DNA from: Tubiluchus corallicola
Taxonomy: Eukaryota > Priapulida > Priapulimorpha > Priapulimorphida > Tubiluchidae
DNA length: 64,000 bases
Direction: 5' to 3'
NCBI GenBank assembly: GCA_030141605.1
Contig: JAQGDQ010000009.1
Span: forward strand, 1,209,001 to 1,273,000
Part shown: positions 7,317 through 57,000 of the stretch, piece after piece
Layout: every line of letters starts with the position of its first letter
How positions within the stretch are numbered: position 1 is the stretch's first letter
The notes under the pieces: model-generated
What the model saw: only the letters and a program-made list of their open reading frames with translations
Database searches by the model: none
What the model was told of the DNA's origin: nothing
Translations under genes and position numbers: made by a program

Positions 7317-10300
7317 ATGAGATTGAAAACGTCACTTCTGAAAGAACCCAAACATATCCTTTTGTGTAATATATAGGCAGTAGATTATTCGCATGTTGCT
7401 TAACCTAGCTGCTCCATGCACATTGTCTGGCATTGTCTGCAAAACGTTTTTATCTGATACACTTATTTCTGTGAATAGTAACAATTGCTACAGTGATAGT
7501 CTGGTAGTTGTTAAGTACATTCACTTCTTTACTAGATGGACCTACATTCTGTAGGTGCTTGCTATATGTCATTTCTTTTTAGATGTCTGTGTTGAACAGT
7601 TTCCACATGCTGAGTATAGAAATAGGCTCTATTCACTAGCCTGGCAAAGGAACTTTAGCTGTTTCGAATTTATTGAGATAGGAAAGCCAGCATTAGTATT
7701 TTTTGCAAGGCATTTCTTTTTTCTTGGATTTTATTCGATAATAAGAGTGTTGGTCAGTATAATGAAAAGAATTAGGTAACCACGGGTGAACGCATGTTAT
7801 CTGTTTTCATTTTGCAGGATCTTGTTGCAATACATTATTACATTGTTGATTAACTGTGTTTGAATTGTGTTATCTGCTCGGGCTCAGTCAGTACCAGCAT
7901 TGATAATAGATACTGCTGGCCTGTCTATAATTGCGCAGTCTTTCCACAAATTTTTCACCAGCCTGTATCAAATATATTCCCAACATGTAATCTGGCATAT
8001 TTAACATTGTTTATGTAGTTAATTAGTATAGCAATTGATTATACTTTAATTGTGTAGTCCTATTTCCTTAACTGTTGATTACATCAAGATATTACATGCT
8101 GTGTGGCTTGGACGTCAGCAGATGAAGTTTATTCAGTTAGCGATGATCATCAAGTGCTGAGTTGGAATGTATTGACTGGGGATACATCTCGGGTGTGTTT
8201 TATTAAACATTTGTGTACTCCTCTCTCTCTCTCTCTCTCTCTCTCTCTCTCTCTCTCTCTCTCTCTCTCTCTCTCTCTCTCTCTCTCTCTCTCTCTCTCT
8301 CTCTCTCTCTTCTCTGTCTCTCTCTTCTCTCTCTCTCTCTCTCTCTCTCTCTCTCTCTCTCTCCTCTCTCCCTCTCTCTCTCTGTCTCTCTCTCTCTCTC
8401 TCTCTCTCTCTCTCTCTCTCTCTCTCTCTCTCTCTCTCTCTCTCTCTCTCTCTCTCTCTCTCTCTCTCTCTCTCTCTCTCTCTCTTTCTGTCCCCCCCTC
8501 CCTCCCCCCCCCTCTCTCTCTCTCTCTCTCCCTCTCTCTCTCTCTCTCCATCTCTCTCTCTCTCTCTCTCTTCCTCTCTCTCTCGGTGCTTCCATCCCTC
8601 TTTTTCTTTGCATTGAATTTCGGTATGAGTGGTCCAGCCGGGTAACATGTAGGGTTCCTTTTTTCTTTTTTCAAGTTCCAAATGAATTTTTGGTATGAGT
8701 GTACGAAAATTCTATCTCCATTAAAATGTGAATAATAAACAAAGCACTGATGCATTTTATGTTTTGGATTTAATAGGTTGCACAACTACCAGAGGAAATT
8801 TACCCGACTGATATACATTGGTTTCCCAAAGCCACACTTGGCGGAAAGGGCAAGGTTTCGTCATCTGACTTTTTTGTTTTGACAGCAACAGATGGTACTT
8901 TATGGTTTTTGTATCACAGTAATTTAAAATATGCAAGTATTAAAAACCACAAGTGTTAGTCTAAAATAGTTTTACAGATATATGTTAAAAGAGGTTGTTT
9001 CACTCTAATTAACATGGATAATTTCTCTTGAGTTAATTAGCTACATGCTCGCTGATAAAGGGAAACAATATTTTCTCTGCATGCCAAGAAATGTTATGTA
9101 TTTTTGTATTTGAAATTTATCTTTTTGTGAAAACCATTAATGTTGGTAAATTTTTTCAGGTCGGTTTTATCTGATATCGCACACAGGCAAGATTGAAAAG
9201 AAGGTTGAAGCTCACAAAGGAGCGATAATGTCAGCTAGATGGAGTTACGACGGCACAGCCTTGGTAACTACTGGTGAGGACGGTCAAGTGAAAATCTGGT
9301 CACGGAGTGGCATGCTGCGATCTACTTTGAGTCAAAACAGTAAGTTTTTTTATTTTCACGTTGGTTTCTCAAAACTATATATTGTGTTACAGGTTTTCAA
9401 AAATTTCTATTGTCTTATAAAAACATTAATGCATTTATTTTTTGTATTACTAAATCGCTGAAGTCATTTTTTCTGAGGTGATATTTGTGGTATTGCATAC
9501 TCAACGAATATCTGTTTTATCCATGTATTTCTGGCATATTTGCAACTGCGGAAAACTGATTGCAGTCTTGAAATTGTTTTTTAGGTACTCCGGTGTATTC
9601 TGTAACTTGGGGACCCGATAATGATGCGGTCTTGTATACTAACAGCCGGCATTTAGTCATGAAACCGTTGCAGCCAAATGCGAAGCCACTTCAGTGGAAA
9701 GCACACGAAGGGTTGATATTAAAAGTTGATTGGAATCCTGTTCATAACTTCATACTTTCCGGTGGAGAGGACTGTAAATACAAGGTTTGACCTTGGCAAC
9801 GAATGTTTCCCGGAGTGTTGTCCTGAAATATCACTAATGCTAATAAACCTTACTTTACTACCACCTCTTTGTTTTTATCATTGATACACAACACCACTCC
9901 TCAGTTTCTAAAATAAATGTTTTACCAATTTTTTTTGACAGTAGACAGTAACACCTTCTAATTCAGCATGTTTTATAGTCATATTAAAGTATATTTAGTT
10001 AAAAAAATTGCAAAACACTTTTGATATTGTAGTATTACATGCTGTTACAGTAAAAACTGGTGGTCATTTTAAATCAGAAGAGCAATCAAAAATTACTAGA
10101 AACTCTTTACTTCAATATTTGTCCAAGTCACCTTGTTGTTTTCATATTGACAGTACTTGAGTTAAGCAGACAAACGGTCTGTGTCAGCGATACAAGGTAA
10201 CTGTGAGCTGACAGAGTTTAGCATAAATTTTGTCCTGTTGAAAGGCTATCTTCAATCTTATGTCAAATCTGCAAGATTTATCTTTGTGACTTTTTAATAC

Positions 10301-54000: not shown

Positions 54001-57000
54001 CAGACTGCAGAGTAAAGCAGACTTATACTTACACTGTTAGCAAACAATCGCAAATCAAGGGTAACAGCAAACAATATGGGCAGTGACCAGTTTTGATCCT
54101 TTTGAGCTTGCAGAGCTTTGCAAAATGATCTGATTACAAGACGTCAAGAATAACAATCTTTTATTATAATACCTATGAAGCAAAATTTCTATGTCACAAA
54201 ATAAATTGCATAGGCAAATTTTAAAGCTTGTAATGGTGATACTTTCTTTCATTAACCCTCTCCAGCGAAACTGTCTCGCATTTTTAACTTGAAATTCATG
54301 TAACCAAAGCTTAGGCAGTACTACTTCAAAATAATGTGCTGCCACCGACGTTTCAATTCTTTTATTATTATCACTTTACTCAATTTTTCATTCAGGATGT
54401 TCCCTTGGTCTGTGCTGCTCTCTTGGTCAACAGGAGTAATTTGTACTTAAGAAGTAGACATACTCTGACGCAACATTTTATCAAGGGCATCCTCACAACT
54501 GTGTAAGTGCAGCATCAATTCCGTACTCATTTCAAAGTTATAAACAATCACAGCTACACTGGACCACAAGGATGCACTTATAAGATACATAAAGTTTAAA
54601 AAGGATACTGTACAACAATGGTTTGGCATGCATAAGCTTCAACAAAATCATGATTTGCAACAGCATACGTACACCTGAATAAAAAAAGTTTGTAGTTTAG
54701 TTTAGCCTCTCAATTGAAAATGAATTTAATTAAAAAACAAATTACATGAATTTCACCTGATGTGAGCTGCCACCATTTCATCATATGGAGGATCAAAAAA
54801 TCTTTCCACAGCTGATTCTGGATTTTGCAAATGTAGTTTTCGACTAGCTATGTGAGGATGTCTAAAGCTCAGAAATTCCTGCAACCGAAAAGTAGATTTG
54901 AGTTTTCCCTACTAATAGACATGTAGCCTGAGTTTTAGACCAACAATCTAATGCAAATATCATCAATAATAAAACAGCATAAAAGTGGAATCACAGAAAA
55001 GGCAGAAACAGTTGCTAAAGGTGTATAAGAGATGTGTTCCTACAGCAATGACGGTACAAATTAATAACTAATAAATTTGACAACAGAAACTGTACAAAGC
55101 TGGAACATAGCAGATGGAATAAATTTTGGACTATTTTGATCACTACCTGCTATTACGATACCAAATTTCCAGTGGAACACGATAGTCTAGCAAGTTCTGT
55201 AAGTCGTCTGCTTTGTAACCATCAGGTCAATGGTTCAAATCTAGGTCGTCATCCAAATTTCCACATTATTTGTTTTTCAAGTTTGGTTTCAAATTAAATT
55301 AAATGTGGGTTGTACTATTAGTAATATTAATCTGGATATTACGATTATAATTAATTAATAACAACCATGCTCCTAGAAAAACAATCAAGTCTAATAACCA
55401 TTAAAACACTAATAGCAGGATGTATACAATACTGTACAATTTCTACTTACGGAGGCAGTAAGGCCATCTTTGTCATCAATAAGCGTCTGCAACTAGAAAA
55501 GACCAATATAATTATCAAATTACACTATGCAATATACAAATCGCAATACTAGCAGGCCTAAATTGCTTCTACTTTTATTTCAATTAAGATAAATATATGC
55601 ACAAACAACTACTTGTAACAATGCAACAATAAAAATTTCATACTACACCTTTTTGTAACAGAATCAAGACAAAGGCTGAAGCAACAATCTGTAAGGATGC
55701 CAGGCAGCAGGGATGGCCGATCCCGATCATACAATCGGCGACCCGGCCCCGATAATTGTCTCATAGGTACTTCCTGACTGTCTAGAATCGGATACGTAAA
55801 AAAAGCGGGACACACTTAACTGATCAATTTTGTTTATTTTTCCTTTTTTTAAAGAAACTGACTAGTTTGCCTTATATTTTTTAGAAGTGGTAGTACACTT
55901 TTAATAAAATACCAGCACAGCTTATATTCAGATACGGAATTAGTTTATTTATCTCCTGTAATTATACACAATAAATAAGTACAGAGATAAAAAAAGAGTA
56001 CAGAGAAAGGGTGGCAAAAGACGCCATGCAGGTTTTAGTGAAAGCAGATTTATGTTCAGGACTGTCAATGATTGGTTTACATCAGCCTCTGTTCCAGTCT
56101 AGGAGGCACTTAGCTCTAAGTGCAAGAGTTATTTATGTGCTTGCATAGCAAATCGTCCATAAGTCAGCAGTTAAGCTTTTCTAGTTATTTATATAACCTG
56201 AATCTCCGTTTCATAAGGATCATTTTGATACCAAGCACATCACTCTATATTATTTCTAAGCTGAGATAATCCACATTGAAGTTGAGGTGCACGTTATGCA
56301 CTGAAAAACGTAATCTTGGGAAAATTGCAGCTAAAGTCAGCCGTTTTTTTCTGTCGTGTCTCTACAAAACACCTAGCAACCGTACAGAAGTGTGGTTGCC
56401 ATGGACTTTGCAAGAGCACATTGACGTTATGTTTAAATCTAGTAGATGGCTCTTCCTGACGAAGATTTGGGCTTGTCAACAGAAAAAACACGAAGCAAAA
56501 TCAGAGTTTGAAAATACAAGTTTTTTACAATTACAGTACTAGATTCTAGCCAGAAAAGTGGGTACGTAGTTATAAAATTAGATTTTTAGAATTTTTTGGA
56601 CATTTTATTGATAATTTGATGCTAGAATATAAAAGTTCAATATATTTATCATTTGTTTTTATAAAAAATAAAAAATTAACAACAGACCAAAATTTGGTAC
56701 ATTCTACTTTGACGCATCATAATGTAAATATAACTTTGCCGACTTATGGACGGTTTTGGTTTGCTAGCACACATTTAGTCTTGTAAAGCTGTCTTTCTTT
56801 ATATCTCAAAATTAGTTCTCAACAACTTTCTTACTTTTAGGGCTTGGTTAATTCTGACATTCGCCTCCTTTAATTTAACTGTATTATCAATATATAAATA
56901 ATCAATTGCAACATTACTTGCACTCACTCTTTCATTTAGTTCTTCACGTTAATAAATGTTCTGTAGTGTCTTCACTGTTTCCACATAATGAGCATTTGAC

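Follow-up and report, generated by a model that had tools for sequence, protein, structure and literature searches.

Within a 64-kb window of the genome of the priapulid Tubiluchus corallicola (the whole stretch analysed, G000:C679:1209001-1273000, in an assembly of 343.5 Mb and 2,344 contigs), three neighbouring genes, IFT80, ICE1 and PCID2, carry between them four introns of the U12, or minor, type, two of them in ICE1. As a sequence observation this is confirmed; splicing by the minor spliceosome is predicted, and its actual occurrence is something we infer from the sequence. The explanation that we favour, with a probability of roughly 87%, is that these are four ordinary U12-type introns, probably old, two of which share ICE1, and that they are adjacent by chance. 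Set beside U12-type introns at large, their perfect donors, branch sites 11-14 nt from the intron end, termini, non-zero phases and the accompanying minor small nuclear RNAs (snRNAs) are all alike, so that there is no difference in kind, and what is unusual is the local density only.

Signals, reading frame and small nuclear RNAs

Introns were scored against the U12 consensus, RTATCCTTT for the donor and TTCCTTRAY for the branch site, and the four divide into two AT-AC and two GT-AG introns. IFT80 intron 1 (7354..8082, plus strand, AT-AC, phase 1, 729 nt), which separates exon 1 (7317-7353) from exon 2 (8083-8192), begins with the donor ATATCCTTT, a 9/9 match, and has the branch site TTCCTTAAC, also 9/9, at 8064..8072 of the plus strand with its branch A 11 nt from the end. 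The same donor, ATATCCTTT (9/9), opens ICE1 intron 3 (28467..28683, plus, AT-AC, phase 1, 217 nt; exon 3 28432-28466, exon 4 28684-28744), where the branch site TTTCTTAAC scores 8/9 at 28665..28673, plus, and its A is likewise 11 nt from the end. ICE1 intron 11 (40425..40842, plus, GT-AG, phase 1, 418 nt), between exon 11 (37031-40424) and exon 12 (40843-40976), has the donor GTATCCTTT at 9/9 and the branch site TTCTTTAAC at 8/9 (40822..40830, plus; A 13 nt from the end). PCID2 intron 4, whose numbering assumes one upstream exon, runs on the minus strand (54608-54130, GT-AG, phase 2, 479 nt; exon 4 54674-54609, exon 5 54129-54033) with the donor GTATCCTTT, again 9/9, and the branch site ATTCTTGAC at 7/9 (54143..54151, minus; A 14 nt from the end). 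The phases, 1, 1, 1 and 2, agree with the known bias against phase 0. In the proteins the introns fall at KH|Q (IFT80), KCQ|D and NI|F (ICE1) and VVQ|S (PCID2).

How distinctive are these signals? An earlier note, made from the letters alone, had counted four U12-type introns among 50 modelled; the four stand, and the total here is 46 (17 in IFT80, 19 in ICE1 and 10 in PCID2), the remaining 42 having donors that match at 2-7 of 9 positions. That note had also placed branch-like sites 11-15 nt from the 3′ end, and they are indeed found at 11-14 nt. With the branch A held to 9-15 nt from the end, a score of at least 8 is reached by 0.36% of 14,580 random AG/AC ends, and a score of at least 7 by 4.1% of them and by 4 of the 42 other introns, so the PCID2 branch site is weak taken alone. 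IFT80 intron 6 has an 8/9 branch match, yet its donor matches at 4/9. RTATCCTTT occurs six times in the window, and two of these occurrences fall outside the four introns, at 12349 (plus) inside an IFT80 intron and at 53560 (plus) inside a PCID2 intron, antisense to it; a shorter donor-like match, GTATCCTT at 13748, is within an IFT80 exon.

Does the reading frame need these junctions? Spliced protein-to-DNA alignment, with no U12 model and with AT-AC made costlier than GT-AG, chose 7354-8082 when the guide was Chlamydomonas IFT80 and 54608-54130 when it was human PCID2, and in the aligned stretches it also recovered the other introns modelled by hand (6 introns in IFT80, 10 in PCID2). The ICE1 junctions are placed by frame and signal, with no homologue aligned over them. 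Enumeration of alternative in-frame, stop-free pairs, with the donor moved from -30 to +60 and the acceptor from -60 to +30, gave within that range no other GT/GC-AG pair that preserves protein length for IFT80 intron 1, ICE1 intron 3 or PCID2 intron 4. What lies nearby in frame is a single GT-AG alternative for the first of these, which adds 2 residues, two GT-AG alternatives for the second, which lose 14-15, and for PCID2 intron 4 two pairs, both GC-AG, which lose 11 and 14. That the reading frame needs the AT-AC or GT-AG termini, as the earlier note had it for each intron, is borne out, with the qualification that ICE1 intron 11 has further in-frame options, namely five other GT-AG pairs nearby, each of which alters protein length.

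One of those options, a fair U2 donor, GTGAGG, 18 nt upstream, which uses the same acceptor and removes 6 residues, makes ICE1 intron 11 the likeliest place for the alternative that survives best, that at least one of the four is spliced as a U2-type intron or by both spliceosomes, as a twintron. Human PCID2 is in print as one of 18 U12/U2 twintron genes, its ancestral intron being U12-type (PMC3564746), and the branch match of PCID2 intron 4 is 7/9 only. In comparison with twintrons, then, the printed human host is the same, but PCID2 intron 4 here is without a second, protein-preserving U2 junction in the range searched, and a possible one is at ICE1 intron 11. All four donors are 9/9 whereas none of the 42 others exceeds 7/9, branch scores reach 8-9/9 in three of the four, and the same three introns as above are without a length-preserving alternative, so that U2 or dual splicing, though possible, is unlikely.

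Is the machinery present? The genes for all four minor-spliceosome snRNAs, which the earlier note had proposed looking for, are in the genome, each above its family cut-off: U11 at 101.7 bits, U12 at 105.9, U4atac at 86 and U6atac at 112.4; on these snRNAs a minor spliceosome is present. The U12 snRNA contains the stretch GTAAGGA and the best U6atac the stretch AAGGAGAG, which pair with the branch site and the donor respectively. A second U6atac-like match (G000:C1024:835508-835631, 74 bits) is a possible variant or pseudogene. In the general pathway, were it to apply to these introns, U11 would base-pair at each donor and U12 at each branch site before U6atac/U4atac displaced U11, and the standard minor spliceosome would remove all four.

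Lineage, locality and chance

All three hosts are already known as minor-intron genes: IFT80 is listed as one in a human and zebrafish study (PMC13216214), PCID2 appears among the twintron genes cited above, and Ice1 is so named (PMC8034651). Since minor introns are found in the same three hosts in mammals, those described here are probably old. The hosts are the same at the level of the gene, the level at which they were compared, and each intron may be at its ancestral position. That two U12 introns are together in ICE1 matches a known tendency of such introns to share genes, with co-occurrence beyond expectation in 21 of 21 genomes (PMC7367187). The suggestion of ancestral introns clustered by chance, one of the two offered by the earlier note, fits the status of the hosts in mammals, the ancestral U12 intron of PCID2 and the within-gene clustering.

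The other suggestion, that minor introns are retained or gained in unusual numbers in this lineage, some 8% then being typical of its genes, takes its appeal from 4 of 46 introns spread across three genes and from the full set of minor snRNAs with U6atac matched twice. Genome-wide, on both strands, RTATCCTTT occurs 5,503 times (16/Mb), and its reversed control word 8,842 times; the count is below the 6,941-8,208 expected from Markov models of order 1-5 trained on 264 kb around the window. The Markov expectation is preferred because permuted words run at about 37/Mb in the window, far over the genome-wide 16/Mb. Were all 5,503 perfect donors true intron starts, they would still make up 2.2-3.7% of an assumed 250,000-150,000 introns, like being compared with like because the four U12 introns of the window all have perfect donors, and a U12 fraction of 8% would, with the total intron number assumed as here, add thousands of perfect donors.

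Exon ends away from the window tell the same way. The sample took in 80 of the 93 matches to the myosin head and 80 of the 111 to kinesin, whose ends approximate exon ends. Dropped were 13 myosin rows, made up of inverted copies on contig C917 together with exons that belong to the longest heavy-chain matches, and 31 kinesin rows, made up of near-intronless long matches, most of the matches reaching the profile end, and the weakest matches. Near these 160 exon ends no 9/9 donor was found (95% upper bound 1.9%), and 8/9 donors were near seven of the myosin and three of the kinesin ends, against 3 of 46 in the window besides the four at 9/9. The donor tests count perfect donors only, and on that footing neither the donor-word count nor the 0 of 160 points to a share of U12 introns across the genome much higher than the human minor-intron density, given as 0.276% (PMC10639083). 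Relative enrichment is described in the same source for molluscs, arachnids (ticks over other Acari), Lingula and Limulus. A modest enrichment of the present lineage is possible. That minor introns are unusually many in it, to the extent of 8%, was not borne out and is very improbable, given no genome-wide excess of perfect donors, none at the sampled exon ends and flanking donors that, by eye, appear to be off exon ends.

In a myosin V-like gene (L085/L077/L114, G000:C51 ~247150-247690, minus strand) an intron, one of these 8/9 cases, has the donor GTATCCTTA exactly at an exon end with a best branch match of 5/9; it was left unclassified and is possibly a U2 intron that has this donor by chance, or one that has changed class. 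The two inverted myosin heavy-chain copies (G000:C917:20400-23919 and 90660-94210) have exon scores that are equal or nearly so, which suggests that they arose by recent duplication in inverted orientation or reflect the assembly.

How surprising, then, is the local cluster? At the genome rate 1.03 occurrences of RTATCCTTT are expected per window and six has a Poisson probability (at least six) of 7e-4, which corresponds to about 3.6 such windows per genome, but among 167 permuted words, with a mean of 2.36, there are 12 that get to six in the window as well, so the donor-word count alone is weak, and the case for U12 introns is carried by the exon-end position of the donors. Several points weigh against the cluster being ordinary introns met by chance. 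Myosin and kinesin genes are a non-random sample of genes. Ice1 is called a minor-intron gene in print, but that status is all that the available parts of the literature on ICE1 intron positions yielded, and two such introns are nowhere stated in them. The contrast of 4 of 46 here with 0 of 160 elsewhere gives a Fisher P of 0.002 (0.009 with the myosin V case counted, as 1 of 160), so a local cause formally remains. Finally, when normal genomes of the same size with 300-700 U12 introns were simulated and fixed 64-kb windows with at least four were sought, only 0-8.5% of them gave such a window if there was no within-gene clustering; with 10-20% of host genes carrying a second U12 intron, 10-75% did, gene numbers, lengths and second-intron rates being assumed inputs throughout. 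The strong local excess of the earlier note is nominally real by the Fisher contrast, for which the window was picked post hoc on account of its U12 introns.

A regional cause, such as co-regulation through minor-intron splicing that gathered minor-intron genes here, has that same contrast in its favour and is highly improbable: 2-31 windows per genome with three or more host genes are expected by chance (at assumed rates of 2-5% host genes and eight genes per window), the three genes are on different chromosomes in humans, and in 200 kb of flanks none of four perfect donors is, by eye, apparently at an exon end, three being without a preceding coding stretch and one, at window position -67309 (ATATCCTTTG), within a long open frame.

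Gene models and neighbouring features

The IFT80 gene (7317..23419, plus; 18 exons, 17 introns, 767 aa) was modelled without an internal stop; its product covers residues 1-760 of Chlamydomonas IFT80 (E 6.8e-247) and matches the Pfam IFT80 propeller and TPR. Intron 2 contains a long (CT)n run (8221-8584), and intron 9 hosts an antisense, intronless ankyrin-repeat open frame (14099-15217, minus; Ank_2 E 8e-63) of 349 aa counted from the first likely ATG. ICE1 (25832..46945, plus; 20 exons, 19 introns, 1855 aa) is also free of internal stops; its C-terminal 449 aa match Pfam ICE1_C (E 4.6e-19), and a Pfam search with its N-terminal 202 aa gave no family at E 0.001. Its intron 4 has a (TACAT/TATAT)n run (28857-29106). 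In its intron 7 are a tandem array (31411-32235; 82-nt unit, 10.1 copies, 96% match) and an antisense open frame (32843-33604, minus) that lacks introns, spans about 250 aa and has an Ig-domain match under the Pfam cut-off and, by eye, a likely membrane helix.

The PCID2 model (48302..55492, minus; 11 exons, 10 introns, 357 aa, no internal stop) is partial, the first and last coding parts being outside it; the product matches human PCID2 at E 5.9e-168 and no Pfam family at E 0.001. An Rfam scan of the window gave no family at the gathering score, and a search of the assembly for mitochondrial COX1 found none. Towards the left end is an SLX9-like gene (752-3108), under the Pfam cut-off, and at the right end an OSTM1-like gene (61578-62255), preceded by a membrane-protein-like intronless open frame without a Pfam match (60762-61520). 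Short frames at 4808-5035 and 56760-57060, both minus, resemble retrotransposon remnants by eye (RNase-H-like and zinc-finger-like words).

ICE1 and what the introns may mean

ICE1 is the scaffold of the little elongation complex, which acts in the transcription of snRNA genes by RNA polymerase II (Pol II) (PMC5493778). Could its two minor introns tie it to the minor spliceosome in a feedback loop? The genes for U11, U12 and U4atac would be among the ICE1-dependent Pol II snRNA genes, and the ICE1 mRNA would itself need the minor spliceosome twice, so that, if the idea were true, less minor-spliceosome activity would mean less ICE1 and in turn less snRNA output. We consider such a loop improbable. 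As four ordinary, probably old introns brought together by chance, the set adds one animal genome with minor introns in IFT80, ICE1 and PCID2, which is of little surprise, and it illustrates the way in which coincidental clusters emerge when many windows are scanned. That ICE1, needed for snRNA production, has two minor introns is the one point that perhaps merits a direct test.

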